Of a DNA stretch of 64,000 nt, positions 15,534 to 49,056 are shown one piece after another. The position numbers and the translations under genes are program-made. Numbering within the stretch: position 1 is the first letter of the stretch; the number at the start of each line of letters is the position of its first letter. The notes below the pieces were generated by a model. That model did no database searches, was not told the DNA's origin, and was given only the letters and a program-made list of their open reading frames with translations. Source of the DNA: a virus. Location of the stretch: the IMG/VR virus record IMGVR_UViG_3300032360_000001, positions 1 through 64,000 of that record; one strand, written 5' to 3'.

Positions 15534-15537
15534 TCAA

Positions 15538-25400: not shown

Positions 25401-28400
25401 TCTCACCTCAGCTGGATATCTGGAACCGCCAACCGATATTCCGTACCCAGTAGAAATGCCGTGCCTTGTTCTTGATGCTTGATTATTGTATCTATTTCTC
25501 ATTGCGTCCCCAACGGCAAACACAAGATCTGGGTGCTGTGGTCCGACTTCTGAAAATATTACCCTAGCTACGTCTTTATCTACAGCTGACGGGTGTACTC
25601 CCCACGCTGCAAAGTCTGGGGTTTCTTCTCTTTGGAAATATCTTCCTCGATTCCTCATCGCGTTGCGATGCGCTGCTGTCGGCGGGCCTATTCTGGCTAC
25701 TCCACCACGATCAATATTACCCCCCACTAGAGTGCTTGCTTCTGGCCCCCGCGTATATCTATATCCACCGGGAGAAACGCCGTGTGCTCCACGTGTTGCT
25801 CTCACGCGTGGAGCAGCCATGTGGCCGTGAATTCCGGCGCGATATCTTTCCGTAGCTAACGCTAATCGATTGGGGCCGGCAGCAGTAGCATTGTAGGTGT
25901 CTCGCCAAAAGTCACGGAGTCTATTATTCCATGCTTGGTGTTTCGGTAGCAATGTCTGGTTACGGCCAGTAGCAGGAATTTCAAGTGCTGATTGTCTTCT
26001 AAATTGATTCGGAACAGAGCCCCCACCTCTGGGATTCCAAACAAAACCGCCTGCGCCATATTCTACGGGCTGCATTGTGCCATATATAGTTGACATCTTA
26101 TTAAACTGCTCCCACCACCCTTGCCTAAAGCCCGGGAACGGTTTCCCATCAAGCATACCCGGTCTTTTGTCTGCTTCCGGATTGAACAAATGTTCCCCTC
26201 CCGGTATAAGAACAACGTCATTTGGCTTAAGGAATTTACTAATATCAGGTTTCCCCCCGGCTCTCGTCTTTAACGCTTTCATTAATTCCGGATTGGCCGC
26301 CGCCAGTGCCGCAGAAATAGTAACTCCATTTGCGCCCATGCTGATTGCCTTGGCGGTAGTCATTTCTTCTCGGTATTGCTGACCTATAGAGGTAAGACCT
26401 TCTCCCACCTTTACCACGTGACCTAGTCCCTTTCCGGGAATTATTTCGTATCTTGACGGAAAACCTTCATTTTCGTCGAAAAATTTGTTTTTAGGATCCA
26501 ATTCCCATTTAGCCTCTGGATCGAAGCCCCCTGTATGCGGCAAGCCAGTATATGGATGCACCTCCACTTCAGCGCGGTTCTTCGATTTAAAATGTTTTTT
26601 GGTCAAAAACCCGCTGGGTGCCCTACCTTTCCACCCGGCTTTGGACATGCCAGAGTAGCCCACCACCATACCTAATGCCTCTCTAGTCTTCTTGTCGCCC
26701 TCGATTCTGCTTGGTACTGGAACTCTGTGTGGCCCTTTGGGCTTAGGATTTATTGGCGACCTCCGTGCTCGTTCTTCCGTCAGTGTTGATCGACGTGTCG
26801 GGGTCGGTATACCTTTTTTCTTTCGGAATAATGTTAATGCCTCAGTAGTAGCGGCTCCAGCGTAGCCGTCAATCTTGAGAGGCTTAATCTGACCGGCTTT
26901 AGGATTTGGCGACATGAGACCCATGCTGGTTAAATGTTTATTAAGAGCTCTTTGTTGATCTTTCCTTTCGCTCTCGCCGGTGAAGAACGCGTTAATGCCA
27001 CCCCCTTGCTCACCAGCGGCCCCCGGAAAATTTGTCATATCCTGACCCCATAATCCCGTATAGCCTCCGCTCTTTATGCTAAACCATTCGTTTAATACTC
27101 CAAAAGCTTCTGGTTCAATCCACCCGGCAGCCATCATGTCATTCGCTACGCCGGGTTGCATACCGTTTTCCCATTCCGAAAAACCGGCTGGGTGCATCAG
27201 CTGACTCATTCTTTTTCCCGGTTTTAATTTAATCTTTTCGGCGTGACGAATCATCTTCATGTAAGCTGACTCAAATGTATCGTTCTTTGTAAACCCAAAT
27301 CTTTCTATATTATTTGGATCTTTTATCCAATTTAATATGTGGGAGTTATTAGCCAACTTCTTTATATAATTCTTGTCTAATTTTGGTACTTTCGCCCTGA
27401 ACGTGTCTCTAGCCGTTACTACGCCACCCGCACCGAATTGTGGTACGTCCCGATCCGGTCCACGACGTAGGTTTTCTAATTCCTCCATCAGATCTAGATT
27501 TAGAGGAAGCGCATTACCCTTGTTCTTACGGGGGTCGGGCCCAACCCCTGCCCCCCATCCGCGTTTATTGAGGGCCCAAGGTGCTGGGTGAACGCCTTCG
27601 GGCCATGGGTCACCACCCAACGGCATGCCAAATGGACCAAATCCCGCATCCCTCATCCCATCGATCTCGTTCTCACGATCAAGCATGGCCAGATGGTCAG
27701 CTAATTGTTGTTGGCGTACTGGATCATCTTTCCTTGCTCCCCCCCACTCAGCAGCGGTTGGCCCAAAGGCGTTGTTACCTGAGGAGCCGCCTACACGGCT
27801 GAAGCCGCGACGACGCGGGTCCACGCGGTCCCAAAACGGCAGTTTATCGTTGAATTTGCGCGCCGGTGAGTCGCTCCATGGATAAGCAGTACCAACGATA
27901 CCACCATCTCCAAATCTTGGAACCCCCTCCCCAAGACCGGGCATCGTTGAATTCCGGTCCCTCAGGTCCGGCCTAGGAAGACCCGTGGCGGGATCAATCT
28001 CAAACGGCCATGGTATCTGTGGTGGCATTGGCGTGCTTGGGCCTTGTTGCCGGTTTCGGCGCGAAGGTATGCGATGCATACCCTTTGGGAGTGGCGCAAA
28101 GGGGTCATTCCACCATCTGCCCTGACCGGGATCAGGTTCCAAACCCATTGCACTTGTAGGTGAGTCGGGGCTTCCAACAGGCAGCGCATTTGGCGCTTGA
28201 ATAAATTTATTGTACCACGCGTTTCCCTTCCCCTGCATAAGACGGTCCTTCAAAAGTCTTTTATGAAGAGCGTAGTTTTCACTCCATCTATGCTGCGATC
28301 CAATCCCTATTTTATCCAACTCCGAAATGGATGCCGAGATCTTTGGATCCATTAGCAATCCCGAAGTGCCCATTTCTGTAAATATTCTTTTGTTATAATC

Positions 28401-31400
28401 TCCTATATGGGGTATAAGTTCGGGCATGGATTCATCCAGTAACTCTTTCTCACTAAGAATATGGCGTGGGTTCTGCGTTTGCCTTTTCATGAGGAACTTG
28501 TATATTCTGCTTGCTTGCGAATTGCCCTGATGAAAAGCCCCCATGTTATCGGCCTGCTCAAACTCACCGATGAGGCCCTTCTCCTTCATAAACGAGTGGA
28601 ACCACAATCTCTCGCTCATCATGCCGGGGGTGGCCCTATCTTTGGTCCTGTTCGAAGTCGAAGTGTGCCGAGTTTGAGTACCTATCCTCTGCCCAAACAT
28701 AGTTCTAGGTATCTCCATACCCGGCGGCGCAAACATCGCAACCCCCCTGTTGCTAGAGGAGGCAGCGCTCCTCATTTTGTTTTCGGTCCGGAATTCCAGA
28801 TTGATCCTAGCCATGCGTTTTTTCTCGGCTTCTAATTCGGCCCTCTTCGCCAGAGCCTCCTTAGACAAGTTATACCATTCGTCACCTCTGGGTATTTCAG
28901 TGGATAGATCACCCCTCCCAGACTTTATGAGCGCTTCTCTTAAACCTTCTTCTGTCATGGGTCCCCGCTTGTGGAGGGGTTGACCAAAGAAACCCTTACT
29001 TGGAATTTGTCCCGTAATTTGAAGCATTTGTCTTTGCTGGATCTTCTTCTCCCAAGCATTTTGATATTGCGTAACGGGACCTCCGTCTTGATAAACCTGT
29101 GGGTTAGCCCATCCGGATTTATTTTTTCTCCACCACTGATTTAGATGAGCAAAGGCTAAAGGGTTTCTCTCTTGAAAGATTTGTAGCTCTTCTCTGGCGG
29201 CTATCTCTCTCTCGTTAAGACGAGCCGGAAATCCCGCTATGGGCAAGCCGTTAACGCCAATTCGTTCCGCGAATGTCAACAATGTGTGCTCTTTCTCATG
29301 ATCGTAACCGCCCTCGGCAATGTTTCGCCTCATATTGCGCATCTTTTGCGAGGCAAGGTCCTTGGGGGTACCCTTGTGACGAAATGGATTACCCGGAATT
29401 CCAATTTCCCGTCTGAATAATTCTTGCATCTCCATTTGGGATTGCACCTCATGAAACGCTGGCGGAGCTTTGTCAAAAGCAAATTGTCCGTGCTCACCGC
29501 CGGGATTGCCCGGCGCACCGGGCAAAACTTTCACTCCCCTTAATGGGTTCCGGCCCAAGTTTAAATTGCCGCCAAGCTGCTGGCCGCCGCCCCACCCCGG
29601 CATAAGTGGTTGCTGCTGCGCCCAAGTATTTGGGTGCCGCCAAGGATTTTGAGGCACCGGACCACCTTGTTGGAACATCCTTCCTTCATTTATCTCGCGT
29701 AAATGACCCAGCACTCCGGGCTTTCTGACTTCGCTTTTTCTGACTATGAATTCTCCGCCCTCTGCTTCGAGCTTAATGCCTCCCCTCGAGTGAGAAGGAC
29801 CATGAAGCTCTCCACCTGACTGTTGTTGCGGTAAGCTTGGCCTCCCATAGTTTCCAAAGCCACCGCTCATCAAGTTCCCCATAAATCTACCTATCGTAGC
29901 GTTATAGAACGCTTGGTTTATCATCTTTAAAAAACCTCGAGCCCACGCTTTCGCCGTCTCGGTGGCGCTTTCGCCCTCTACTGCAAAAGCTGCCCAACCG
30001 TCTGCGAAAGACGAAATCATTCCTTCTCTTATCTCAATCATGTCGTCGAGGACCCTTTCCTTCCATCCTCTTGACATTGCCTCACCCTTCTCAAACGTGT
30101 CCGCTCCAAACGCTTCCCAGACACCTATTTTTCCCGTTCTTAGTTGCTGACGGGTTATATCCTGTTCTCTTTGGTATGTATCTGCAGGTGTTCCTATGCC
30201 CGCTGCTTCTTCTAGTCTGGCTTGTTTTGCTGCTAGCCTTAATTGAACCTCTGTCAGTTTTTTTGTTGAGTTTAATAATTCTTTGAATTTTTTGGGGTCA
30301 TCCATTATGGACAAACTCATTGTTGTATTCGCTATCTGCGTGTCGAGTGCCTCCATCCTCTTCACGTGCTCTGCGGTTACAAATCTTTTTTGTATTTCTA
30401 TAGCTGCCTGAGTTACCGATCCCCAGTTATCGATAATTACCTTTTGAGCATTCAGCGCATCTGTGTGTGATTGTTTTGCTTTTCTTAATTCATTTTCAGC
30501 ATCTTTTCCTGCGTTTATAATGTTTATGTAGTCAGCGTATGTTGCGTTATGCGCGTCGAGTTGATTTGTTTCATTTTTTCTTGCTAACGCTGACGCTTCG
30601 GTTGCTGCCTCCAGATCATCGTTGACCTTCTTAAGCTCTTCTTTAGTATCGTCGCTCTGCTCCTTCCTTAGTATTACAGCTTTCTCGTTAAGCAACCTAA
30701 CCACATTATCCTCCGCGGTCTTCTTCTCATTAGCCGTTACCCCCAACGCCGCATCACTTTTCTCAAAATCTTTGAATTTCGCTGTCCGCATCATGTGGGC
30801 CTTTAAAACATTTGCTTCCGCCACCTTACTCTCTGCGAGAGCTTCTTTTCTTCCCCCCGCGGCTGCTTCTTTTTCAATGGTCAAAATTTTCTCCATCTCT
30901 CTCTTGAGGTTCCGCTGCTGGGTTTCCCCCACTCTTGATGGTGAAATCGCGCTAAATGTCTGCGCGGCAAATGCGCCACCCGGCTGTGATGTCCTTGGGC
31001 TGCGCATCTGTTGCAATAGGTTTTCCCTCGGTAAGCCCTCTTGTCTTATAAGCTCCTGATCGAGCTCGAAAGGAGACATGTCTTGCAAATCTTTTGAGGA
31101 AATACCAATTGCTTTAGAGAACTTTTCAAGCGCGGCACTGGCTTCGAGCAAAGCGTCTCTTTCTGCTTGTAAAGAGTCAACAAGCCCCTTAGACTGCTCG
31201 TTTGCTGCCTGATTTAGAGCTATTTGGTCCGCGGCTGCCTTTGCTCTTGGGTCAGTAATCTCGCTGGGAAGTAGCGCCGCGCCACCACGCGCCTCTATGG
31301 TTTTTTGGAGCATGGCCGATTGGTCTGTTCTTTCTTTTATAGCCCTCTGTTCTAAAGCTGTTCTTAATACCACCGCATTATGCCGCGCTCTTATGTTTCT

Positions 31401-34400
31401 GTCCCCAATTTTCGACTCTGCCACTAGCAGCCGCTTTTGCACTTCGGTTAGCTTCGATTCAATCAGCGTTCTCTGAGCGTATAAAGCCTTTAATTTGTCT
31501 TGTGCTTTGCCAGCCTCAATCGTTCTGTTTTTTATTTTTTCTTCTATTGCCGCAATCTCCTTAGCGTTGTCTGTTATTTTTTTCTGGGCTACATTCGCCT
31601 TGTGTATTTCGTTATGGTATGCTACGCCTTCTTTAAATTGTTTGTCGAGTTGTGCAGCAATTTTCTTTTGTTGATTGGCGGTGAGTTTCTGCCCCAGCGT
31701 GTGTTCAATACTATATTGGGCCGGGATATTCATTTTGTCCCCAGCATTAATTCTATTAATGTTTGCAATTTGGGGATTTGCCCCTTTTAAATTGTCTAGA
31801 GAGACTCCGTAGGTTTGCGCAATTGCATTAGCTGTATCGCCACCCAGTATTGTGTGCTCCCGCGCTGCCGTAAATCCAAGTGCCGGTGGCCCCCCGACAT
31901 TTCCGCCGGGTGCTGTTATCATCCGTTGATGAGCCTTGCCCTGACTTAGATTAGTCAAAAATCTGTACGCCATGTCTCGCTTATCACCAAACGTGGCCGG
32001 GTCGTTTTGCATACCTGAGATTTTCCATATACTACCGGGGCCCAGCATTGAGTGTTCGTAGTCACGGGTGCGGTCCGGGGTGAACACCCCCCCTTCTTTT
32101 CTCACTGCTGCCCGTCGCCACAAGGCATCTTGGTTCAGTTTACCGCCAAACAAACCCCCTTCGAAAGTACCGGGTGACAAACCCTCGGGGCCCATGCCTG
32201 TGACCTTGCCAGCAATGTCCGGCATCGCGTCCTTTAGCTTATCCATCCATTGCCCCCCAACTCTTTTTGCCACGTTGACCTGTTGAGGCCCCCTGAAGGC
32301 CGCAAGCAGATTCTGATTTATGAAAACGTTGGCCATCTCCATCGTGTGCCTACCTAGCGTTCTTGCCATAGCAGATGCTTTCTGCGTGGCGGCGGTTTGG
32401 ACCCGTTTGACGGCGGACATATCTTTGTTCGCAGCTTCTAAACCTTTTTCTAATTCTTGGAAAGGCAGATCGCCCAAAAACGGTGCCAATTTATGAATTT
32501 CATCAATCATTTCCGCGTTGTCGCCCATTAACCGTTCCGCGGCTTGTCGCGCTATATCATGTATTTTATCCGAGCCAGTCTTCAGCTTAGTTAGGTATAT
32601 AACGCTTGCCCTTCCGCCGGGGTCGCTTACCTCTGGAGACGCTTTCTCTACGTCCTTCATCATTTTATCTATCTCGCTAGGATCAGGAATATTCTTAAAC
32701 GCTTTATCCGGGTCGATACCTAAAAGTTCCTTTACGCTTGGTAATCCGCTTCTCGGCCCCTGATAGCCTTTATTTCCTCTTAAGAATGATCTTCCGTATT
32801 TACCAAATGTTTGTCTAGCCATTGTGGTAAGTGGCTGAGTAGTTTGTTCTGTTCCTCTTCGTACTTGACCAGCAAGCATACTACCCGGAATAAGAGGTGG
32901 GGGTATTGGTGCTGATGTAGTTTGTTTCCTGAGGTCAAAAAGTTTGTCTCTTAGTAGTCTTGAGCTAGACCTTCCCTCTATTTCATCCATTGCCCTTTTG
33001 TATTGCTCCGGCAACAGATGGAGTGCGTTTTTTATTTCTTCTCGTTGACTTTTTGAAACAGTTTCGTCGGATAGTATAGCTTCAAGTATGTTAGTGAGAA
33101 CATTTATAACTATATCTTCTTTATTATTAAGAGCATTTTTTGTGTCTTCGTTTTCGCTTGAATTAAGTTTACTCAAGGCGTCTATCGATTGCTGTATAGC
33201 TAATAAAGGAGTTTCAAGCGGGTCTGCCGATATCGCTAATTCGGTATCTGCAAGCTCGTCAATGGTAGCATTAAGAATTTCCATGCCGTTTGAGAAATTA
33301 TCTGCATAGTCTGCAAAACTGTTCAAGGCATCGCTGATATTATTCCCAACATCCATGGTGTTGACTGAAAAAATCCATTCCTTCATGGTATTTTCAGCCG
33401 CCTTGGAAAACGAATTTGTCCATTCTTTCACTGCATCCACAGTGCCGCCACCTTTAGGCCTGTCCGGAACACCCCCTCCAAGATCTATCGTTGATGACCT
33501 GAATGGTTTAAGCTCCTTTATCTGCTTGCTCAAAAGAGCCGCTATCTGTTCTGCTAATTTTTTATCTACTACAATCCCTTTGTTTGGATCAATAATTGCC
33601 TTAAGACTGGCTTGAAACGCATCTGTTATTGTGTCGAATTGTTCTAAGAGCGGTTTAATATCCCCCTCCCTCTCAAAGAAGCCCTCCTCGTCACCGGTTC
33701 TTAAAGCCACGCCTTCTAAGACCTTTCTGATCCGAGCCTCTTGACCTTCGAACTTGTCTAGAGCAGCCTTAATCAACTTAGCCTCTGAGACGTCTACTGT
33801 CCTCCCCTCCTTAAAGGTCTTTTGAAAATTAGTAAATAGCAGCTTCCCTGCGGAGCGGTAATCCTCCATCATGTCGCTGACCCCGACCATCATGCCCTCA
33901 TATTCGCCTTGCTCCAGCGGCTGTTGTACCCTAATGAGTGGTATTTCATTATAATAAGACGCATCGGTTCGCCCACCACGCTGCTGCGTCTGATCCCATG
34001 TTTCACCGCCACCAATGCCGGGTGAGAGTACTTGTCGCGTTCCTCTGGTATATATCTGACCCGGTTGACTCGGGTGAACTCCGATCACGGCTGTTTGTAT
34101 AGCCAATAATGCTGTAAGAAGTTTCTTCGGGTCGCTCTGCAATTCATACGCTTCGAATCCCTTTTTGCCCGGAAGTAGAGCTACGACATCTGTCAACTTG
34201 GATAGTGCAGATATCATGTTCGGCTGCCAATTTCCGGAGTCTCCCTCGAAAACCATATCCTTTAAATCTTTTGTTAATATCTTTATCGCCTCAGAAGGGC
34301 TGGCGGAGGTTCCCATCCATGTCTGGGTTTTTTCCCAGTCATTTAAGTCCAATGGCAGAGTACCGCGCACCCTAGTCTCACCCGTGGGCAACTCCGTTCT

Positions 34401-37400
34401 TTCAATTAGTCCCTGCTCCTCTGTTACTTCACTTATTCTAGCGAAGGACCTCAGCAAGGCTTCCTGTGCTCTTACGAGGGATATCTTCATCTGACTGTCC
34501 TGCGGGACATTTGCATCAGTTAAAGTGGATTTATACGCCTCAAAGGCGACTGTCATTTTGCCTACGTCCTCAGCATTTCCGCCAGTTCGGACCCTCTCCA
34601 TGAATTTTGCCATATTTATGTCAAAACTACTATCCTTCACTTCCTGTTTCGACACAGCCCAAACGTCCATCTTCTCCGTAATGTTTTCCCACGTCATAGA
34701 CTCTCCCGGCAAAAGGCTCCCAGCCGCCGCGTCAATGTGCTTTACAAGCCAAGTATTTGCCTTGTGCAAACTCCATAGAATTCCACCTTTATCAAAGATT
34801 TCCTCATGTTGTGGAGGGACCATCGAGAATTTAGTGCCCTTGCTCAAGTTGGCCATCATATCCTCGGCACCGGCTGTTTTACCCTCTAAAGAGGCGAAGG
34901 CCTTTTCTTGGTTTATTCTAGTATGCTGCAGGCTTTGTTCTCCCCTAAATACCTCTACCGCCTGCATGAACCCTGTGTTCGCCTTGGACATGATTTCGCC
35001 CATTTTTGACACGGCCCCAGTCATCGCAGTGTCTATCGCGGCTTTATAAACTTGATCATTAGTTCTTCGCTGGTTTGCCCCGAATTCCTCTGCTGCCATT
35101 GCCGCGCTGCCAAGTTTTTCATTTGAAACTATAAGATCGTAATTACTGCCAATAAGTAAAGCCGTTACGTCAACATTTGCACCCAGACTCTCCACCAACA
35201 TGTTTCTGTTTTTGAACTCGGCCTCTAGAAGTTTAGCTTTATATGCTCGTTCTTCTGACGCAATTTTTGACAAATTAGCTGAGTCCATAACCTCCGCCAT
35301 CATTCCGCCTTGAGCAGAATTCATGCTTTCTATTATACTTTTCCCTATGTCTGGATTAAAGTTGCTATTAATGACTCTACTTACGTTTTCCGGGCTCATT
35401 CCAAGGGCCTCTAAAGCGTCGGGGGCTTCTGCCCTAAAGGTTCTTTCCAGAAGGCTCTCTTTCATGGCCTTACCTATGCCATTTGCGAAATCAAATCCCA
35501 TTTTTTCCAGATCTCTTAGCCCCTGCATCTGCATCATTGCCGCTTTTGACCTCTCGCCCCTAGTTGGAAGCCCCGCCACAGTCGTTAACTTCTTCAAGGC
35601 GTCAATAATGCCTCCTCCGCCAAAACCTCCCCCCGCTGTCATGGATTCCTGCAGGGTTCTTCTTCTTTGAAACGCCCTGTTCGATTCTGCAATTTGATTT
35701 TGAATTATCAGAAGCCTATTTGATTGGGCAAGATTTAAATTGTTTTCTTTTATTTCGTATTCTGCTTTGGAAAGTGCATCTTCTAGTTTTCTACCCTGCT
35801 CTCTTCCGACCCCCCCTTCCTTGTCATTGATTATTCCTCTGTATATATCCGCGGCAAGATCAGCTGGGCCGACTATCATTTGCCGCGCCAAGACTTGAAG
35901 TTGCTGCAATCCGCCGGGCAAGCTTCCCCCTGCGCTGCTTTTTTCCATGGTCATCTTAAGGATTGCGTCGTGAAATCTTTTTTGCAACAGGGTATTTTTT
36001 AAGGTGTTAGTTTCTATATTCTTGAGTATATTGCCGGCAACTCCAAATCTTTCCCTGCGTTCCCTACCAATCGTTTCGTCCCCCGTTACGGCACTTGATA
36101 ATTCCTTGCTCACTTTCTGACTGTGGTCAAAGAGAGATTTTGATACATTCATTAAATGTTCAAATGAATTTGATATTTGTGATAACCTATAGTTTAGATC
36201 AGCCGTAGCTAGTGCCATTCTTTCTATCGATTCTACAGATTTTGAAGTTTCTGCTTCGAGCTCTTCATACCCTCGGGCTTGAGCCATTATCTGCGGTATA
36301 AGACCTTGATTTTCTTCTCCAAGCGCTTCTATCATGTCTGCGGCTTCTTTAGCTCCAACGCCCATTTCTTCAAGCTTAGCCGTTAGATCAGCGCCGGATT
36401 TACCCATGAGTTCCCAACTCTTAATTCCTTTTAATTCGAATGCAGAAGATAAGGTTTTCGCCAAGTCCTTCATTACTCCTCTTTGCGCTGCGCCGCCTTC
36501 CCCCGCTTTCGCCGCTAATACGCCCATCGAACCTTTCTTTTCCTGCATGGAAATAGTTTCCTGCACTTTAGCCATGGCTTCTCGCATTTTGCTTTCATCA
36601 CCAGCAGCACCAATTAGCTCTCTCCTTAGTCCCGCATCCTCGATTTGCATGAGTTGTTCTCTCATTTGTCTGCGCATCATCCCCGTTTCGGCAGGACCAG
36701 CGCCCCTATTAAACATGCCGGTTAATCTCCCCTGCAGTTTAATATATGCCTCCGCGCCGAGTAAGGCTTTCTTTCTCGCCTCCGTCTCTTTTTGAATAGC
36801 TTTCGCGTAGTCTTCCGCTGTTTTCTTGCTGGCTTTTTGATGGTCCATGAACGCCAGCCCGGCACCAATAGCTAAGCCCGCTGCCGCGCCCCAAGGACCG
36901 CCAATCATTGCGCCAGTTCCGGCCATCCCTGCCGCGGTGCCAACTCCTCTAACTTTTGCTTTCTCTGCTCTTTCTTCTGGGGTTTCGCCTTTGCCTCCAA
37001 CAAATTGTTCGGCCACTCCAGCCATCATTTGAATACCTATTCCCAGCCCAAAGCCTTTTTGTTTGATCCACTTACTCGCGGCACCTTTCGTGTCCGGTTT
37101 TAGTGCTGCGGCCTTTTCTGCCGCTTTTGCTTCTGCGTGTTTTGCGGCGGCTACTTTCCTTGAGGTCGTTGCCATTTTCTTGTCCATCGCCCAAATTTTT
37201 GCTTGAGCGGCGGCCTTTTTTTCGTTTGCTGCGTTTGCTCGATCAGCAGCGCGGGCTTCAGCCTCTCTCGCCTTTTGAAGAAGTAAGGTTTTTTTGGTTA
37301 GGTCCTTGGCTGCTTTATCGCCGGAATGTTCGCCGACGGATCCCCTTGGGGTTCTTCCTGAAGTATCTACGGATTGTGAAATTATTTTACCAGCTTGGGC

Positions 37401-40400
37401 GTGGCCTTGTTGTCTTAGCTTTTCGATTTTTGCATTGTATGCTGGGGTGTGTGGAAGACCAGTAGAAGGATTTATTCCGGGAACGCCACCAACGGTGCCT
37501 CGCTCTGCGCGTAACCCAGTCATTCCTAGTCCCGCTGGTCCGGAATGCGCCATTCCAGCGCCTCGCGGCCCCGGGGTACCGTGCATTATTGCCCTGTTCA
37601 CTTCTCTTCGAACTATTCTATCTGCTGCTTTTTGCTGCGCCGCTTCAGCTTGCTTTACGCCTCCCGTTCTCTCCCCCCCCGGAGTGGTTCTCGTTCCGAA
37701 TTTGGCCTCCATTCGGCTCTTGGTCGCCTTCTGAGCGTCGCGCCCATGCTCCTTGACCTCCGTTTGTAATCTAGTTTTTTCTTTTTGTTGGGCTTTTCGT
37801 GCTCTTTCTTGTTTTTTAGCGGCTGCTTTCGCTTTTTTCTTTATATCTTTTTGTTTTTCGTGATCCGCCTTTTGATCGGCCAGCATTTTTGTTTCTTGAG
37901 CGCTGTCTCCGCCCATTTGCATCATCATTCCTGCCATCATCATTCCTGATGTCATGGCCATGTAATCAACGCTATCTGCAGCATAGTTGGGTATGTAACC
38001 CCCACTTGCCCTCGAGCCCGCTTTAGCTGGGTCTGGGTGAGATCTAACAGCTTTAATTAGATCCGCCTTTGTCCGTTCATCTCTCTTATTTCCTACCGCC
38101 AAACCTTTGTATTCTGGAGTATCTATGGAAGCTGCATAAAGTTGATTTTCGGGTAACCCGGTGGCTTTCTTTTCCCTTCTAAACGCATCCGCTAGTGCAT
38201 CGCCTTTGCTGAAACTAGGAATGAGCCCTTGGCCAGCTGGATTAACCTGCCCCCAATTACTGCCATAATTTACTATTCGGGGCCGTATATTCATATCTTT
38301 GCTTGCACCTCTTAGTGCCGCGTAATATGCGTTTGCCCGTGAGTCTTCATAGAACTTTGCGTTTTGTAAATGTGGGCGTTCAAAAATTTCATAGGCCTTC
38401 TTCTGGTGAGTTTTCTCTATCCCTTTGGGGTATTTTCTGCTTCCAGTAGCTATTACTTCCCTGTATGGAATTTTTTGGGCTTTTAACCAAGTCTGAATAT
38501 ATGGAATTGAATCTTCCCCTCTTGCGGTTAAAACCGTCATTGGCTCTTTATTTTTTGAGGCTGCCTTCGCTAATTTAGTTGGTACCATATGACCGACAGA
38601 CCAACCATGCCACGTATCCCCTTCTCGCATTTTTCTCATACCTGTTGGGGTGGTAACCATCCCTTTTGGAGGTACTCCCAACGTCCCATCAAAATCAAAA
38701 ATGTTTCCCTTTCCGCGTCCACGGGCTGCGGCTGCCATCGATCCTCCCCGCATTAAATTAGGAATGAAACCTTGGGCCGCACCAAAATGCGTCATTAGTT
38801 TATCATAATTCGATGCCGATGGACTCCCTTGAAGGATCTTCATTATATCCTTACCAAAAATATCTTTTATTTGTGTAGCGCCTTTGGCCCCCTCAAGCGT
38901 AACTTCACTTTGGGAAACTCTTTGCATTCTTTGGAAGTCTGCCGTTTTTGCGGTATCTATATAGTTATCTAATTTTGTTAGATCGCCCTGCAACTTCTGC
39001 GGACTGTGGAATGTGCCGGCTTTATCTTTGTAGCCGCCGCGGGCAATATTCTTTTCTATTCCTGTCCGTAAAAAATGCAATAGTCCGCCCTCTTTACCCG
39101 AGTCAGAAGAGAATAACGATTTGTACGACAGGCTTCCTCTGGCGTCTCTGCCGGACATCCCCGCATGAAAACTTGGTTTGAATTCAGCAGGTCCAATTAT
39201 TTTCCCCCCTTTTATAGCTATTGCATCTAGAATTGTTTCTCCTTGCCCCCCCTTTACATTGCTAAACGGCAGAAGTTGATGGCCGCTACCACGACCAACA
39301 AGGGCTTTTTCTATTAAACTAGAATGAGTTAATTCCGCTTTTGCAAAAAATGAGCCTTTAGCAGCGGGGTTGTTACCTAGCACCTCCATTGCCCTTTCTC
39401 TTGCCCCCAAGAATGACCGTGCTGTCCCGCTTGGGTGGTATACTATATCTTGTGCTATACGCGACGCGTTACCCGCACCCCCAACTGAATCGACGAAGCC
39501 CTTGTACGCCGTCTTACCAACCGCCGGAGATAATAGATCATTGTAAAATCGTTTTGCAACATCGCTTGGCATTGTAGCTCTCGCAACTGCTACTTCTCCT
39601 ATTTCTCCTAACGCTATTTTTCCCTTTGCGGCTGACACACCATGACCCGATATTGCATGATCATAAGCGGTCCTTAATACGTTTTTTTGCCCCTTAGGAA
39701 CCTTGGGTCCGGATTTATGGAATCTCCCTATTCCGAAACTTTCTAAAGAAGCGGCTGCTCCTTTTCCGGGCATGGCTACTGTACCCAACCCCAGTTTGCC
39801 TCGACCAAATAAAGAAAGCATCGCTGGGTTGGCGAAATTTGGAACTGAATAAGGATCGACACCAGTTTTGGCCATTGATTTTTCTCTATGTTGCCTACCG
39901 GCCTTCGAGTGCTGTGGTGGATTAATGAATGGCTGAGCAAAGCCGGGTACATGTTTAACCTGTTCTTTTGAGTTGTAGGTCATTGTTCCAAGCCCGGGCA
40001 TTTTCATTTGTTTTATGGCTCCTGCTTTGTACCCGCCTTCTGCTGCGCTTATTATTTCACTTACAGCGCTTTCTCTCTTGTTAAAATTCGGTATGTGTCC
40101 CCGCGCCGAGTGTTTGGGCGGTCTACCCCTCATATACGCCGGTGCCTGTACTTGTCCTGCACCACTTACGGTTACCCCGCCCTTTACCATCATGCCAGCC
40201 ATTCTTGCGGCAACCTTCTCCATGTTCTGCATCACAAGGGTCTCTTGCTCGAGCATAGCGATTATTTCTCTTTCTACCTGCACTCTTGCTTGCGATGACT
40301 GCGCTGCTCTTGCTATAAGTTGTGGCTGAGCTTCCAATATTTTGGCTATTCCTTCTTGCAAGCTTTTTTGTTGTACAGCAGCGGTGTTCAAACCCATGAA

Positions 40401-41771
40401 TTGGGCTCCTGATTCCTTGACGAATTTTGCTAAATTCATTCCAAGTTTTCCAAGGAATCCAGTTAATAAAAGAAGTCCCGGGCCTTGCAAGAAATTTCCA
40501 ATTCCGGACAACATTCCTTGCGCAATTTTTCCCCCCACATCTTTCGTGTCCTTTTCGTTTATGTCGCCTAAAACTTTTTGCATAACTCCAACCACCCTCT
40601 CTGTGACTGGTCTTAACGTTAGGTCTCCTACTTTCTTTGCTGCCTGCGTGGCTAGAGCCATCGTCTTTTTTACTTGAGCGTCGAGAGTTTTGTTGAGCAG
40701 TTCATTTCTTAATATCGCTTCGTTTGTCGATCCCGTCGATACCTTAACGGCTTTATCGTAAATCGAATATTCTTGTCCAAGGTCAGAGAGTATCGCTCTT
40801 AAGTTATTCATTTGGAATACGCCAGCAGTAACCTCAGCAGTATGAGCTTGTTGAGCCTTAGATAGCGTAGGAAACTTTTTGGCCAAATTGCCAAGAACAT
40901 TCATTGCGGGCATCATTTGCCCCTCCAAGTCTCTCACCTTCACCCCTAATTCTTCCAAGAGATTAAGAGTGTCTTTTCTTTGGATTCTTGTAAATATACT
41001 TTTTAACGCGTTACCAATAACGGGACCACCACGGGCCGTTGTTTGCTGAACGGAAGCTGTGATTGCAAGAAGTTGATCAAAGGATACGCCAACGTCCTGA
41101 GCGGTACTTCCCACACGCCTCATGGATTGAGCTAAATCATCTGTGCTTACGGCAAATGCCGCATCCACATTGGCAAGCTTATTAATTACCTGAGTAGAAC
41201 TTAATGCCTCCCTATTGAACGTATTTAATGCTGCCGTTAAGGAAGAAACTGATGCCGCCGCATCCATACCGGAAAGTCTCGTAAGAATGAGGGCGTCGCT
41301 TGTTCTCTGAAGCGTCTCTTCGGTTGACAAACCTTGCCTAGCTAATTCTGTCGCTGCTTCAGCTACAGTATCGAAACTTTGTGCCGTTTTTTGCGCTATT
41401 GTGAAAAGGCTGTTTCCGAACTTTGCGAGGCCTCGATCTGTTTGTCCTAAAATTACATTGACATCCTGAAGTCTTTTCTCGACCTCAATAGTACTTTTAA
41501 GTAAAAATTCAAATGCCCTTTGGACTTGAAAAATCGCCCCAGCAGAAGCTCCAAACGCTAAAACACGCGCATTTGATGCTTCGAGTGATCTTGTGAATTC
41601 ATTTGTGGCACCAGTGATTTTCCCAAGGGGCCTAGTAAATTTCCCAGAGTCAACGCTAACGTTAACCCCTCGCCTTTCTACTTGGGTAATAGCGCTGTTT
41701 ATTTGCCTTAAAGTGGCTTGTAGTGACGCGCTATCTAACCTTGTTCCTAGTGTGATAAAACTATCCGCCAT
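22482..41771 (-). CDS. giant tail tape measure protein (6429 aa) with embedded enzyme-like domains
   Basis: The start ATG at 41771 follows AGAAAAGG. Residues about 85-330 are a TP901-type phage tape measure domain (GLAKFGNSLFTIAQKTAQSF, LARQGLSTEETLQRTSDALI, STDDLAQSMRRVGSTAQDVGV). Later segments hold IPNF-type motifs near 557, 640, 1000, 1180 and 1257; a PD-(D/E)XK-like region; a HAD domain (DFDGTL); alpha-helical Ala/Lys coiled coils (about 1270-3900); LysM-like domains near 3303 and 5115; a PG_binding_1 motif near 4940; and a SleB-like hydrolase near 5384. Three GGEFVI/GGLIT hinge units near 3985, 5685 and 6210 resemble the usual C-terminus of tape measures. The protein sets tail length and enters the cell envelope with the genome. 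The longest tape measures known are near 5000 residues; at 1.5 A per residue this one would reach about 960 nm if wholly helical. Confidence 0.95.
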   Translation of the reverse strand: MADSFITLGTRLDSASLQATLRQINSAITQVERRGVNVSVDSGKFTRPLGKITGATNEFTRSLEASNARVLAFGASAGAIFQVQRAFEFLLKSTIEVEKRLQDVNVILGQTDRGLAKFGNSLFTIAQKTAQSFDTVAEAATELARQGLSTEETLQRTSDALILTRLSGMDAAASVSSLTAALNTFNREALSSTQVINKLANVDAAFAVSTDDLAQSMRRVGSTAQDVGVSFDQLLAITASVQQTTARGGPVIGNALKSIFTRIQRKDTLNLLEELGVKVRDLEGQMMPAMNVLGNLAKKFPTLSKAQQAHTAEVTAGVFQMNNLRAILSDLGQEYSIYDKAVKVSTGSTNEAILRNELLNKTLDAQVKKTMALATQAAKKVGDLTLRPVTERVVGVMQKVLGDINEKDTKDVGGKIAQGMLSGIGNFLQGPGLLLLTGFLGKLGMNLAKFVKESGAQFMGLNTAAVQQKSLQEGIAKILEAQPQLIARAAQSSQARVQVEREIIAMLEQETLVMQNMEKVAARMAGMMVKGGVTVSGAGQVQAPAYMRGRPPKHSARGHIPNFNKRESAVSEIISAAEGGYKAGAIKQMKMPGLGTMTYNSKEQVKHVPGFAQPFINPPQHSKAGRQHREKSMAKTGVDPYSVPNFANPAMLSLFGRGKLGLGTVAMPGKGAAASLESFGIGRFHKSGPKVPKGQKNVLRTAYDHAISGHGVSAAKGKIALGEIGEVAVARATMPSDVAKRFYNDLLSPAVGKTAYKGFVDSVGGAGNASRIAQDIVYHPSGTARSFLGARERAMEVLGNNPAAKGSFFAKAELTHSSLIEKALVGRGSGHQLLPFSNVKGGQGETILDAIAIKGGKIIGPAEFKPSFHAGMSGRDARGSLSYKSLFSSDSGKEGGLLHFLRTGIEKNIARGGYKDKAGTFHSPQKLQGDLTKLDNYIDTAKTADFQRMQRVSQSEVTLEGAKGATQIKDIFGKDIMKILQGSPSASNYDKLMTHFGAAQGFIPNLMRGGSMAAAARGRGKGNIFDFDGTLGVPPKGMVTTPTGMRKMREGDTWHGWSVGHMVPTKLAKAASKNKEPMTVLTARGEDSIPYIQTWLKAQKIPYREVIATGSRKYPKGIEKTHQKKAYEIFERPHLQNAKFYEDSRANAYYAALRGASKDMNIRPRIVNYGSNWGQVNPAGQGLIPSFSKGDALADAFRREKKATGLPENQLYAASIDTPEYKGLAVGNKRDERTKADLIKAVRSHPDPAKAGSRASGGYIPNYAADSVDYMAMTSGMMMAGMMMQMGGDSAQETKMLADQKADHEKQKDIKKKAKAAAKKQERARKAQQKEKTRLQTEVKEHGRDAQKATKSRMEAKFGTRTTPGGERTGGVKQAEAAQQKAADRIVRREVNRAIMHGTPGPRGAGMAHSGPAGLGMTGLRAERGTVGGVPGINPSTGLPHTPAYNAKIEKLRQQGHAQAGKIISQSVDTSGRTPRGSVGEHSGDKAAKDLTKKTLLLQKAREAEARAADRANAANEKKAAAQAKIWAMDKKMATTSRKVAAAKHAEAKAAEKAAALKPDTKGAASKWIKQKGFGLGIGIQMMAGVAEQFVGGKGETPEERAEKAKVRGVGTAAGMAGTGAMIGGPWGAAAGLAIGAGLAFMDHQKASKKTAEDYAKAIQKETEARKKALLGAEAYIKLQGRLTGMFNRGAGPAETGMMRRQMREQLMQIEDAGLRRELIGAAGDESKMREAMAKVQETISMQEKKGSMGVLAAKAGEGGAAQRGVMKDLAKTLSSAFELKGIKSWELMGKSGADLTAKLEEMGVGAKEAADMIEALGEENQGLIPQIMAQARGYEELEAETSKSVESIERMALATADLNYRLSQISNSFEHLMNVSKSLFDHSQKVSKELSSAVTGDETIGRERRERFGVAGNILKNIETNTLKNTLLQKRFHDAILKMTMEKSSAGGSLPGGLQQLQVLARQMIVGPADLAADIYRGIINDKEGGVGREQGRKLEDALSKAEYEIKENNLNLAQSNRLLIIQNQIAESNRAFQRRRTLQESMTAGGGFGGGGIIDALKKLTTVAGLPTRGERSKAAMMQMQGLRDLEKMGFDFANGIGKAMKESLLERTFRAEAPDALEALGMSPENVSRVINSNFNPDIGKSIIESMNSAQGGMMAEVMDSANLSKIASEERAYKAKLLEAEFKNRNMLVESLGANVDVTALLIGSNYDLIVSNEKLGSAAMAAEEFGANQRRTNDQVYKAAIDTAMTGAVSKMGEIMSKANTGFMQAVEVFRGEQSLQHTRINQEKAFASLEGKTAGAEDMMANLSKGTKFSMVPPQHEEIFDKGGILWSLHKANTWLVKHIDAAAGSLLPGESMTWENITEKMDVWAVSKQEVKDSSFDINMAKFMERVRTGGNAEDVGKMTVAFEAYKSTLTDANVPQDSQMKISLVRAQEALLRSFARISEVTEEQGLIERTELPTGETRVRGTLPLDLNDWEKTQTWMGTSASPSEAIKILTKDLKDMVFEGDSGNWQPNMISALSKLTDVVALLPGKKGFEAYELQSDPKKLLTALLAIQTAVIGVHPSQPGQIYTRGTRQVLSPGIGGGETWDQTQQRGGRTDASYYNEIPLIRVQQPLEQGEYEGMMVGVSDMMEDYRSAGKLLFTNFQKTFKEGRTVDVSEAKLIKAALDKFEGQEARIRKVLEGVALRTGDEEGFFEREGDIKPLLEQFDTITDAFQASLKAIIDPNKGIVVDKKLAEQIAALLSKQIKELKPFRSSTIDLGGGVPDRPKGGGTVDAVKEWTNSFSKAAENTMKEWIFSVNTMDVGNNISDALNSFADYADNFSNGMEILNATIDELADTELAISADPLETPLLAIQQSIDALSKLNSSENEDTKNALNNKEDIVINVLTNILEAILSDETVSKSQREEIKNALHLLPEQYKRAMDEIEGRSSSRLLRDKLFDLRKQTTSAPIPPPLIPGSMLAGQVRRGTEQTTQPLTTMARQTFGKYGRSFLRGNKGYQGPRSGLPSVKELLGIDPDKAFKNIPDPSEIDKMMKDVEKASPEVSDPGGRASVIYLTKLKTGSDKIHDIARQAAERLMGDNAEMIDEIHKLAPFLGDLPFQELEKGLEAANKDMSAVKRVQTAATQKASAMARTLGRHTMEMANVFINQNLLAAFRGPQQVNVAKRVGGQWMDKLKDAMPDIAGKVTGMGPEGLSPGTFEGGLFGGKLNQDALWRRAAVRKEGGVFTPDRTRDYEHSMLGPGSIWKISGMQNDPATFGDKRDMAYRFLTNLSQGKAHQRMITAPGGNVGGPPALGFTAAREHTILGGDTANAIAQTYGVSLDNLKGANPQIANINRINAGDKMNIPAQYSIEHTLGQKLTANQQKKIAAQLDKQFKEGVAYHNEIHKANVAQKKITDNAKEIAAIEEKIKNRTIEAGKAQDKLKALYAQRTLIESKLTEVQKRLLVAESKIGDRNIRARHNAVVLRTALEQRAIKERTDQSAMLQKTIEARGGAALLPSEITDPRAKAAADQIALNQAANEQSKGLVDSLQAERDALLEASAALEKFSKAIGISSKDLQDMSPFELDQELIRQEGLPRENLLQQMRSPRTSQPGGAFAAQTFSAISPSRVGETQQRNLKREMEKILTIEKEAAAGGRKEALAESKVAEANVLKAHMMRTAKFKDFEKSDAALGVTANEKKTAEDNVVRLLNEKAVILRKEQSDDTKEELKKVNDDLEAATEASALARKNETNQLDAHNATYADYINIINAGKDAENELRKAKQSHTDALNAQKVIIDNWGSVTQAAIEIQKRFVTAEHVKRMEALDTQIANTTMSLSIMDDPKKFKELLNSTKKLTEVQLRLAAKQARLEEAAGIGTPADTYQREQDITRQQLRTGKIGVWEAFGADTFEKGEAMSRGWKERVLDDMIEIREGMISSFADGWAAFAVEGESATETAKAWARGFLKMINQAFYNATIGRFMGNLMSGGFGNYGRPSLPQQQSGGELHGPSHSRGGIKLEAEGGEFIVRKSEVRKPGVLGHLREINEGRMFQQGGPVPQNPWRHPNTWAQQQPLMPGWGGGQQLGGNLNLGRNPLRGVKVLPGAPGNPGGEHGQFAFDKAPPAFHEVQSQMEMQELFRREIGIPGNPFRHKGTPKDLASQKMRNMRRNIAEGGYDHEKEHTLLTFAERIGVNGLPIAGFPARLNEREIAAREELQIFQERNPLAFAHLNQWWRKNKSGWANPQVYQDGGPVTQYQNAWEKKIQQRQMLQITGQIPSKGFFGQPLHKRGPMTEEGLREALIKSGRGDLSTEIPRGDEWYNLSKEALAKRAELEAEKKRMARINLEFRTENKMRSAASSSNRGVAMFAPPGMEIPRTMFGQRIGTQTRHTSTSNRTKDRATPGMMSERLWFHSFMKEKGLIGEFEQADNMGAFHQGNSQASRIYKFLMKRQTQNPRHILSEKELLDESMPELIPHIGDYNKRIFTEMGTSGLLMDPKISASISELDKIGIGSQHRWSENYALHKRLLKDRLMQGKGNAWYNKFIQAPNALPVGSPDSPTSAMGLEPDPGQGRWWNDPFAPLPKGMHRIPSRRNRQQGPSTPMPPQIPWPFEIDPATGLPRPDLRDRNSTMPGLGEGVPRFGDGGIVGTAYPWSDSPARKFNDKLPFWDRVDPRRRGFSRVGGSSGNNAFGPTAAEWGGARKDDPVRQQQLADHLAMLDRENEIDGMRDAGFGPFGMPLGGDPWPEGVHPAPWALNKRGWGAGVGPDPRKNKGNALPLNLDLMEELENLRRGPDRDVPQFGAGGVVTARDTFRAKVPKLDKNYIKKLANNSHILNWIKDPNNIERFGFTKNDTFESAYMKMIRHAEKIKLKPGKRMSQLMHPAGFSEWENGMQPGVANDMMAAGWIEPEAFGVLNEWFSIKSGGYTGLWGQDMTNFPGAAGEQGGGINAFFTGESERKDQQRALNKHLTSMGLMSPNPKAGQIKPLKIDGYAGAATTEALTLFRKKKGIPTPTRRSTLTEERARRSPINPKPKGPHRVPVPSRIEGDKKTREALGMVVGYSGMSKAGWKGRAPSGFLTKKHFKSKNRAEVEVHPYTGLPHTGGFDPEAKWELDPKNKFFDENEGFPSRYEIIPGKGLGHVVKVGEGLTSIGQQYREEMTTAKAISMGANGVTISAALAAANPELMKALKTRAGGKPDISKFLKPNDVVLIPGGEHLFNPEADKRPGMLDGKPFPGFRQGWWEQFNKMSTIYGTMQPVEYGAGGFVWNPRGGGSVPNQFRRQSALEIPATGRNQTLLPKHQAWNNRLRDFWRDTYNATAAGPNRLALATERYRAGIHGHMAAPRVRATRGAHGVSPGGYRYTRGPEASTLVGGNIDRGGVARIGPPTAAHRNAMRNRGRYFQREETPDFAAWGVHPSAVDKDVARVIFSEVGPQHPDLVFAVGDAMRNRYNNQASRTRHGISTGYGISVGGSRYPAEVRNGAWWVQAPTRRGFSWRAAQPGEATTASEISMRDIAWQGAPGGFKPTSGNVRQAQQFSAIGDADNDNWHLSGRLSVFQQSPQGFNDMNTWLSGGDAARAVTERYRTHYGSDVLGNATNGWIGAREDIQNVWKKSLEQSATDKRLARGVTVPGQRQSGLLDSDEEWYKSWQIPMGTEFNSGMKPTAMTQNIGPFWMWRPDYTTEWQSRANDKQRSDRGLPTRRGRVAPERRQRGGLITAGSGTTDDVPVYLKKGEMVMTQKAVKDNGVQYFKDIEAGRIRMEEGGEVDEELIQKANEATEENQESEGEETGERNPPSLNEKYGDNLAEAWQGSPGGFKMEGIATQDKKWYNSGNMPGEGMTRVAEVVEERFGKGFKYGGTNAFAVNDPDKPSLGRFFVDHKMSAYAMGDKNNKQNEMREKRRKMFVDYKIYLKEEYENRKEQWDEFKTKKKQMLTSAWIQFAVAAVQVGVAAKSQSANKKYGTDQQVADNPAQFKSMDGAPQGVKAGDYVNQAAHDSWAKKMKWADSPVGSSVIAGGSTALIGWGMGLEKEELALTAGTAAATAAITSYAKIKGLGKAEQNALNSSDPAVQQAALDRWKKHLKPEEITAAEQSIAFHGTETQLKQWVKEENKAQRGIDKWTDVINESEPGGPRRALAEKTAKAHADKLRHVQAGKQAFLANSQALHPGLLEKNANNVWGMNDKERANLKAIKLGWARSKEAATVRRNQLEGMNENEDMLGRMLKPGGNMGGFPVPRKAQGGLITDADGPPGEDTIKALLTRGEFVISKEGVDQFPGGANALLKYNDIAKHGGQVARFAEGGMVGRQSQFAPTSPIASATGGALGLNVGQGAEGMTDSLMQLVDIVQSIRDTVDKETDEKQREKRAGEQNGTQDGTGGVNQEITNNVAVTVNVNSDGTAEATASSSSEGGNEGAGEDGEDDADKHERFAELMQGVVLQTIVEEQRPGGLLYKKG
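25002..25622 (-). other. SleB/CwlJ-like cell wall hydrolase domain in the tape measure
   Basis: Residues about 5384-5590. VDKDVARVIFSEVGPQHPDL and FAVGDAMRNRYNN resemble the Hydrolase_2 (SleB/CwlJ) opening IxExRGEPxxGxxAVAxVxxNR, with the catalytic Glu in FSEV. A long tail with WQGAPGGFKPTSG follows. It would cut peptidoglycan during DNA entry. A lysozyme-like assignment is the main alternative. Confidence 0.5.
26196..26429 (-). other. second LysM-like segment in the tape measure
   Basis: Residues about 5115-5192: GHVVKVGEGLTSIGQQYREE, then a longer insert and LKPNDVVLIPGG. The ends match LysM, but the middle is expanded by about 30 residues, so this is either an interrupted LysM or a related domain. 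Confidence 0.5.
26802..26963 (-). other. PG_binding_1 peptidoglycan-binding motif in the tape measure
   Basis: Residues about 4937-4990. LNKHLTSMGLM, then IDGYAGAATTEALTLFRKKKG, matches the PG_binding_1 family in length and with the D-G-x-x-G-x-x-T and F hallmark positions. It sits about 450 residues upstream of a hydrolase-like domain in the same chain. Confidence 0.7.
31722..31865 (-). other. LysM domain in the tape measure
   Basis: Residues about 3303-3350. The segment EHTILGGDTANAIAQTYGV, followed by LDNLKGANPQI and GDKMNIP, follows the LysM consensus closely, with the first-strand hydrophobics and the closing IP. LysM binds N-acetylglucosamine-containing peptidoglycan or chitin, which fits a protein that meets the cell wall on infection. 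Confidence 0.75.
38247..38712 (-). other. HAD-superfamily phosphatase domain in the tape measure
   Basis: Residues about 1020-1175, between GFIPNLM and GLIPSFS motifs. All four HAD signatures are present in order: IFDFDGTL with both Asp residues (motif I), MTVLTARGED (motif II), a Lys in KGIEKTHQKKA (motif III) and NAKFYEDSRANAY (motif IV). The fold fits small phage or bacterial HAD phosphatases. The substrate is unknown. Confidence 0.75.
38778..39839 (-). other. PD-(D/E)XK nuclease-like cassette in the tape measure
   Basis: Residues about 645-998, bounded by VPNFANP and GFIPNLM. The region contains ALGEIGEVAVA, matching the N-terminal Glu helix of restriction-like folds, then LDAIAIKGGKIIGPAEFK, where Asp, Glu and Lys sit in the order and spacing of D-x(13)-E-x-K. 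A PS-F-H and an S-R-D follow. The fold is inferred from these residues; a non-catalytic relative is possible. If active it could act on host DNA or on tail-associated nucleic acid after injection. Confidence 0.45.
40782..41519 (-). other. TP901-type tape measure core domain
   Basis: Residues about 85-330 of the tape measure. Helical repeats with VAEAATELARQGLS, AALNTFNREALSSTQVINKL and LLAITASVQQTTARGGPVIG are typical of PhageMin_Tail family proteins. This is the anchor for the tape-measure assignment. Confidence 0.9.
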
Positions 41772-48306: not shown

Positions 48307-49056
48307 CTATTCATAACCAAAAATTTCGAAATCTCTTTTATATATGGATTTAACCATGTCTCTTGTTTTTTTGTTATAGTAAGTAGTATATATTTCATGC
48401 TTGGTAGCGTTTACCTTTTTGAACAGGAGCTCTTCATCGTATTCTACTTTTAGATTATCCAATAGCGTAGCCAAGTCCGTGGAGAAGTCTTCAAATCTAC
48501 CTAGAAAATCTACCATTAATTTGCCCCTGCTGTTGCAAATGAATTTATATTGGGGCTTGTAGAATGGCGAATTCAAAAACCAGTCGAGAGACATGTAATT
48601 TTCTACAGCACCACGGATATCCGGCTCTCCTCTTTTTTTATATAGAAACCCAACAAAGTCCTCAAACCTAGAAAAATATTTATATCCCAGCCAAAAATAT
48701 ACAGAAACAACCCTGTCAAGTGGGTTTCTAACAAAAGCAAATTTATAACATCTGTTGAATAAGGCTTTATCCACCTGCCCGAACTCTAGTATCTGTCTGT
48801 ATGTTAGGTGCTGCAGTTCGTAGAGGGATCTGCGTGATTGCCCCTCTCTGTGTTTCATAATAACGAGTGCTCCGCTGGAGTCATACCAATGTCCGTTTCC
48901 ACGCCGATCCTCTATCTGCACGAATCCGAATAATTTTTCAATTGCCATCCTTGGGTCATCCCCGCCAAACTTCATGCCGAGTATATTCTCCACTTTTGAT
49001 CCGCCGGTTTTAGGGACATGAATAAAGAGGAGTTCCTTTTCTCTATTAATTGGCAT
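48307..49056 (-). CDS. sulfotransferase, carbohydrate type (copy 1)
   Basis: A 249-residue protein. LFIHVPKTGGSKV near residue 10 is the 5'-phosphosulfate-binding loop of the Sulfotransfer_2 group, and FAFVRNPLDRVVSVYFWLG near residue 110 is the 3'-phosphate-binding motif, with conserved Arg, Asn-Pro and Ser. Such enzymes move sulfate from PAPS to a sugar or other hydroxyl. It is not a kinase, since no kinase motifs follow the loop. It is the first of three sulfotransferases in the island and the nearest to the neck genes. The substrate is unknown; phage glycan or host surface glycan are both possible. Confidence 0.85.
   Translation of the reverse strand: MPINREKELLFIHVPKTGGSKVENILGMKFGGDDPRMAIEKLFGFVQIEDRRGNGHWYDSSGALVIMKHREGQSRRSLYELQHLTYRQILEFGQVDKALFNRCYKFAFVRNPLDRVVSVYFWLGYKYFSRFEDFVGFLYKKRGEPDIRGAVENYMSLDWFLNSPFYKPQYKFICNSRGKLMVDFLGRFEDFSTDLATLLDNLKVEYDEELLFKKVNATKHEIYTTYYNKKTRDMVKSIYKRDFEIFGYE

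Follow-up and report, generated by a model that had tools for sequence, protein, structure and literature searches.

A short linker motif marks the borders of exchangeable cassettes in the tape measure proteins of uncultured phages

Few phages are known to inject effectors other than host-wall enzymes, and tape measure proteins have so far been difficult to resolve into modules. The window analyzed here (the whole stretch of 64,000 nucleotides, positions 1 to 64,000 of IMGVR_UViG_3300032360_000001, an IMG/VR virus sequence of 89,345 bases) encodes a giant tape measure protein in which the initial annotation had noticed short IPNF-like motifs lying between what looked like enzyme domains. The locus thus raises two questions: whether these motifs are domain borders at which modules are swapped, and whether the modules are enzymes that travel to the host inside the tail.

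The giant tape measure protein and its motif-bordered array

The protein matches Pfam PhageMin_Tail in its N-terminal region (E=7.1e-33), and PHROG 4211 together with other tail length tape measure PHROGs matched it with E-values down to 1.5e-51; SPbeta YomI and others were found by tblastn with the tape measure N-terminal region. This N-terminus (residues 1-540) is common to the window and to 84 of the loci among the matches listed. Lambda-like tail tip genes (Phage_tail_L, JAB-NlpC/P60 and Phage-tail_3/GpJ with GpJ FNIII) are located near the tape measure gene on the opposite strand, and a PHROG search of the genes adjoining the tape measure gave no match. The features of the window that concern us are the following, in the order in which the protein is read, with the tail tip genes at the end.

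22482..41771, minus strand: giant tape measure protein, 6,429 aa, a single open frame (Pfam and PHROG)
40836..41396, minus strand: PhageMin_Tail domain, residues 126-312, inside the conserved N-terminus
40083..40100, minus strand: border motif 1, GHIPNF, residues 558-563; same place kept in many tape measures
39852..40082, minus strand: first unit, residues 564-640, small domain of alpha/beta type (phmmer, AlphaFold2)
39834..39851, minus strand: border motif 2, YSVPNF, residues 641-646
38772..39833, minus strand: putative nuclease cassette of PD-(D/E)XK-like type, residues 647-1000, with the residue pattern E821, D849, E863, K865
38754..38771, minus strand: border motif 3, GFIPNL, residues 1001-1006
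38229..38753, minus strand: putative HAD phosphatase-like cassette, residues 1007-1181 (three HAD motifs, PHROG)
38211..38228, minus strand: border motif 4, GLIPSF, residues 1182-1187
38001..38210, minus strand: last unit, residues 1188-1257, family 0
37983..38000, minus strand: border motif 5, GYIPNY, residues 1258-1263, the array end
11986-20598, plus strand: lambda-type tail tip genes, opposite to the tape measure strand

The 6,429 amino acids contain exactly five copies of the pattern [ILV]P[NS][FYLW], and all five fall between residues 560 and 1260 approximately, whereas composition shuffles predict 0.68 copies for the whole protein and 0.10 for residues 501-1300. A chance origin is ruled out by these shuffles and by a reversed-peptide scan (see below). 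Four units are framed by the five motifs, and the full array spans 37983 to 40100. All the copies in the window (5/5) sit at borders and none was found inside a domain, bearing out the initial claim that IPNF-like motifs delimit four units. The five motifs first reported are retained with their residue numbers corrected by 1-3, while the coordinates first given for the array, 38247-39839 (residues ~645-1175), cover the nuclease and HAD units only.

The outer units are widespread. The first unit (564-640) is present by phmmer in 47 ORFs and the last unit (1188-1257) in 69 loci, both among the matches listed, and family 0, to which the last unit belongs, has at least 123 members. In family numbers the order of the window array is 2-17-18-0. 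The next relative (L126), whose N-terminus is 51% identical, carries the same first and last units with a single family 1 nuclease between them. When the array was modeled with AlphaFold2 the first unit folded well, with pLDDT mostly 80-91 and low confidence at both flanking motifs; the nuclease and HAD units came out with low confidence, the alignment having too few related sequences there, only three close ones.

These two inner cassettes are common only to the window and two near relatives among the matches listed, and alignment-based scans for further relatives returned only the same two. The nuclease pattern E821 ... D849 ... E863-x-K865 is kept in both (L124 and L125), a comparison that covers three close sequences only. 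Searches of Pfam, PHROG and NCBIfam with the nuclease cassette gave no match, and profile comparison detected no relation to families 3 and 15 described below. The HAD cassette displays the motifs DFDGT (1026-1030), TVLTAR (1079-1084) and FYEDSRAN (1140-1147), also found in the two relatives; taken alone it matches PHROG 415, polynucleotide kinase, weakly (E=1e-4) and PHROG 1238 with E=0.0036. Its profile comparison with family 10, a second HAD-like family with the motif DWDGT, reached 58%, which is suggestive only. Foldseek on the low-confidence HAD model gave as best matches 4xru and 4xrp (RNA-repair Pnkp1) and 1xpj, none of them significant, and PDB profile searches with the nuclease and HAD families found nothing. 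We infer from the residue patterns that the window cassettes are a PD-(D/E)XK-like nuclease and a HAD phosphatase-like domain. The identities proposed initially thus agree with the catalytic-residue patterns and with the weak HAD profile match, while AlphaFold2 confirmed neither fold. The HAD cassette might act on nucleic acid ends, which we take as a lead only.

Other features of the protein and of the record were also observed. The window tape measure is 6,429 aa long compared with a median of ~2,270 aa in 46 complete relatives, and a tail of ~960 nm is predicted if it were all helical. It contains a LysM domain at residues 3307-3350 (window 31722-31853, minus strand, E=6.6e-7); visual inspection had also hinted at a SleB-like hydrolase at residue 5400, but follow-up did not bear this out. 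Alongside the tail tip genes there is a TIG-domain gene at 8346-9452 (minus strand). A sulfotransferase family protein, unusual for a phage, is encoded at 48310-49056 (minus strand, E=1.5e-19), and collagen triple-helix repeats occur in a protein of 1,750 aa, probably a fibre, encoded at 58366-63615 (minus strand). Beyond the window, the same record encodes a ClpP-type protease (G000:C1:70489-70965, minus strand, E=6.7e-29), which may be a capsid/prohead or tape measure protease.

Spread of the motif and the families of cassettes

A DNA pattern for GYIPNFA was scanned over 2.9 million IMG/VR viral contigs and gave at least 120 stretches, and a second pattern, for AxGFIPNFA, also gave at least 120. 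As a control, the reversed peptide AFNPIYG, of equal codon degeneracy, gave 8 stretches in the whole IMG/VR collection. The matches sit in long ORFs with several additional motifs. After removal of near-duplicates, at least 195 non-redundant ORFs from IMG/VR carry A(A/S)xG[YF][IV]PNFA; at least 186 of these hold two or more motifs, mostly 2-7, compared with 0.02 per ORF by shuffling. Other tape measures with differing modules separated by IPNF-like motifs, which the initial annotation had led us to look for, are therefore numerous. Among the GxxPxx matches the N is conserved in 98%, the F in 88% and the following A in 78%. The first motif is placed at residue ~550 or ~630, immediately past the conserved domain, and the last one at a median of 45% of protein length (46 complete ORFs).

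A stricter pattern gave 11 matches in prokaryote genomes. Relatives of these tape measures are found in four of the loci (L137, L139, L142 and L145), with MAG labels of Verrucomicrobiales, Flavobacteriaceae (two) and Woesebacteria; the Verrucomicrobiales and Flavobacteriaceae contigs (L137, L139, L142) give a hint of the hosts. Three more loci (L136, L138 and L143) encode Chloroflexi/Anaerolineae proteins of ~730-745 aa with GYIPNF near the C-terminus, and comparison of these proteins with the tape measures found no relation. A tblastn search of INPHARED with the window array, family cassettes, the last unit and two whole tape measures returned only the N-terminal domain, at less than 30% identity, and two SNase-like genes.

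The at least 195 ORFs contain at least 523 cassettes between motifs, which fall into at least 123 sequence families arranged in at least 101 orders, some of these orders being partial since contigs end early. The usual layout runs from the conserved N-terminus to a first unit (families 2, 6 and 7), a nuclease-like cassette (family 1 or 3), optional cassettes, including P-loop, HAD, SNase, GNAT and GHKL types, and a last unit of family 0. In the ORFs examined the cassettes are read through in frame, with no stop.

Families 1 and 3, which together have at least 104 members, show remote homology (hhalign 99.2%) and a common E...D...[DE]xK, and on these residues they bear a PD-(D/E)XK signature. 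In family 1 the D and K are invariant and the E nearly so over 23 sequences with 22% mean column identity. A loose E...D...(D/E)xK pattern was present in 64 of 74 family 1 members and 25 of 30 family 3 members, compared with 5-8% of shuffled sequences. The AlphaFold2 model of family 3 had a pLDDT of 69 with low confidence at the terminal motifs, and Foldseek gave no significant match, so that neither confirmed a nuclease fold. Families 11, 12, 15 and 30 resemble PD-(D/E)XK residues as judged by eye. When families 1, 3, 11, 12, 15, 17, 21 and 30 are tallied as nuclease-like, such a cassette comes first after the first unit in 70 of the 102 ORFs having an N-terminus, among the matches listed.

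Other enzyme types were detected above the Pfam cut-off: an SNase cassette in L099 (E=1.6e-8), a GNAT cassette in L054 (E=7e-5) and a cytidyltransferase-related region in L164 (E=1.3e-7); weaker matches include a GHKL ATPase in L156 (~1e-4) and a P-loop family. Many cassette families match nothing known, and since most are without known relatives the word enzyme holds for part of them only.

Exchange of cassettes at the motif

Among the matches listed, 241 ORF pairs reach an N-terminal identity of 70% or more, and 173 of them differ in their sets of cassette families, some of these differences stemming from contigs that end early. Four pairs illustrate what happens at the DNA level. L112 and L223 are 93% identical up to codon 633 and 98% identical again from codon 938/908, with motifs at 626 and 938/908; between these points a family 1 cassette is swapped for one of family 3, and the left junction is aligned. 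One 286-residue cassette is cleanly present in one and absent from the other of L180 and L191. The pair L207/L221 differs by a P-loop cassette cleanly inserted with a motif at either side, and in L150/L180 a family 30 cassette, with PD-(D/E)XK-like residues, is replaced by an SNase cassette of family 21.

Of 462 breakpoints, 88.5% fall within 8 codons of a motif centre, compared with 11.6% of positions drawn at random from that region. These pairs lack independence; with each ORF position counted once, the value is 86% of 255. These results show that the linker marks the cassette borders, and that cassettes of different families are substituted for one another, gained or lost there. The initial proposals that the motif is a domain border and that modules are swapped both hold: DNA identity between related tape measures breaks at the motif, and the same cassette families occur in many orders. 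A previous survey found tape measures prominent for sequence-level mosaicism with no genuine recent case confirmed (Smug et al. 2023, PMC10684548); in contrast, the pairs described here are clear recent tape measure cases with mapped junctions.

What the linker and its cassettes may do

Polymorphic toxins combine a constant delivery part with exchangeable toxin-type domains; they vary at the C-terminus and are accompanied by immunity genes. The tape measures resemble them in having a constant part and exchangeable domains, but a protein here holds several cassettes, at internal positions, the window array ending at residue 1263 of 6429. The closest known kinds are polyvalent proteins and the tape-measure-like CIS effectors Tme and Sle1. 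Polyvalent proteins of phages and conjugative elements hold unrelated enzyme domains in one long polypeptide, for which delivery with the DNA and early action against the host have been argued, and built-in peptidases are typical of them (Iyer et al. 2017, PMC5512222). They are not described as tape measures, a term absent from the main text of that work (PMC5512222). Several unrelated effector domains per polypeptide are likewise seen here at the sequence level, whereas our array lies inside a tape measure and has a fixed repeated linker. No built-in peptidase was found by Pfam in residues 1-1924, in the separate cassettes or in the rest of the protein, a search that very divergent ones may escape.

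Tme, an effector of the Streptomyces davawensis CIS, is a tape measure homologue with DUF4157 and one C-terminal EndA-type nuclease, whose endonuclease domain is active, and it is loaded in the tail-like particle (PMC11126660). It shares with our proteins a nuclease on a tape measure homologue; the phage cassettes differ in that several lie within one protein, belong to other families and have the motif at their borders, and profile searches for DUF4157 in the window tape measure gave no match. Sle1-type effectors of actinobacterial CIS have a tape-measure-like carrier with a variable domain that is experimentally swappable (PMC13277306). Such a carrier with a variable functional domain is common to both, but Sle1 has a single C-terminal module, while the phages have a tandem internal array with natural swaps mapped to the linker. 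The arrangement had been called undescribed, which has to be narrowed in view of Tme and Sle1; a search of open-access full-text literature turned up neither the motif nor a phage tape measure described as carrying a cassette array delimited by it.

Regarding the motif itself, the 445 copies of G[YF]IPNF among the matches listed are encoded by 166 DNA spellings that between them use every Gly and every Pro codon, pointing to selection on the peptide and not only on a DNA repeat. The low AlphaFold2 confidence at the flanking motifs of the window units and of family 3 fits a linker. Most likely, this linker is an unstructured spacer or a site recognised when the protein is threaded, bound by a chaperone or cut.

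We favor the reading, with a probability of about 0.65, that the tape measure holds linker-joined exchangeable cassettes past its N-terminal domain, which would ride the tail into the host to act there. The cassettes would be exchanged through recombination at the short conserved linker, and in-frame recombinants would survive since the linker functions whatever its surroundings. They would travel inside the tail tube, unfolded or loosely folded, exit with the tape measure before the DNA, fold inside the host and act at once. In siphoviruses the tape measure occupies the tail tube and exits ahead of the DNA (evidence summarised in PMC13190303 and PMC11126660), so that the cassettes would precede any other phage enzyme in the cell. 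Possible targets are host or rival DNA or RNA, or an early defence to be countered; the frequent exchange and the preference for nucleases suggest an arms race. A point against delivery is that a folded domain of ~180-350 residues would not be expected to fit a tail tube. More tentatively, and at slightly less than even odds, a major group of uncultured siphoviruses may use the tape measure as an effector magazine: a recombinable, linker-delimited enzyme array would pass through the tail by threading and reach the host before the genome does, and the linker would serve as a standard joint and perhaps also as a signal for cleavage or threading.

The motif could instead be a processing site where the protein is cut by a protease of the phage or the host, either while the particle assembles or once injection has taken place, which would free the separate enzymes. 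The peptide is kept whatever its neighbours and lies in low-confidence, linker-like stretches, the record encodes the ClpP-type protease mentioned above (E=6.7e-29), and polyvalent proteins are argued to be split by built-in peptidases (PMC5512222). However, residues 1-1924 contain no Pfam peptidase domain, the ClpP-like gene may be a mere prohead protease, and threading or chaperone binding could equally conserve the linker, so that we consider processing rather doubtful.

A different possibility is that the array is a fast-changing non-enzymatic region, swapped to evade host defences or the demands of entry proteins at injection. The rapid turnover of cassettes would agree with this, as would the SNIPE defence, which binds the siphovirus tape measure at injection and from which tape measure changes give escape (PMC13190303). 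Nevertheless, catalytic residues are kept in very divergent members (family 1, 22% mean identity), clear enzyme families such as SNase and GNAT are present, and one nuclease-like type takes the slot of another; this makes such a reading improbable. It is even harder to maintain that the motif has no protein role and is merely a short DNA homology used by recombination: breakpoints do fall in it, and its codons within one ORF agree in 63% compared with 54% predicted from codon usage, but the protein motif is kept despite the 166 spellings and the use of all Gly and Pro codons.

Least credible is that the cassettes are selfish homing-like elements whose nuclease cuts the motif DNA of cassette-free tape measures and spreads in frame, since motif DNA in 166 spellings makes a poor homing target, many mobile cassettes (e.g., families 5 and 9) have no nuclease signature and insertions are in frame in the ORFs examined, even if nuclease-like cassettes are the most common, insertions occur cleanly at motifs and tape measure genes are often targeted by homing endonuclease genes (PMC10448857).

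Returning to the favored reading of exchangeable cassettes carried in the tail, our analysis suggests, at the level of sequence, that the tail of these phages is loaded with a set of enzymes that would be injected ahead of the DNA. Since a short linker marks the module borders, the cargo of hundreds of uncultured phages becomes readable from sequence, and it becomes testable whether enzymes built into the tape measure reach the host by way of the tail tube. The cassettes also point to a supply of nucleases and other enzymes that have yet to be described and likely act early in infection.
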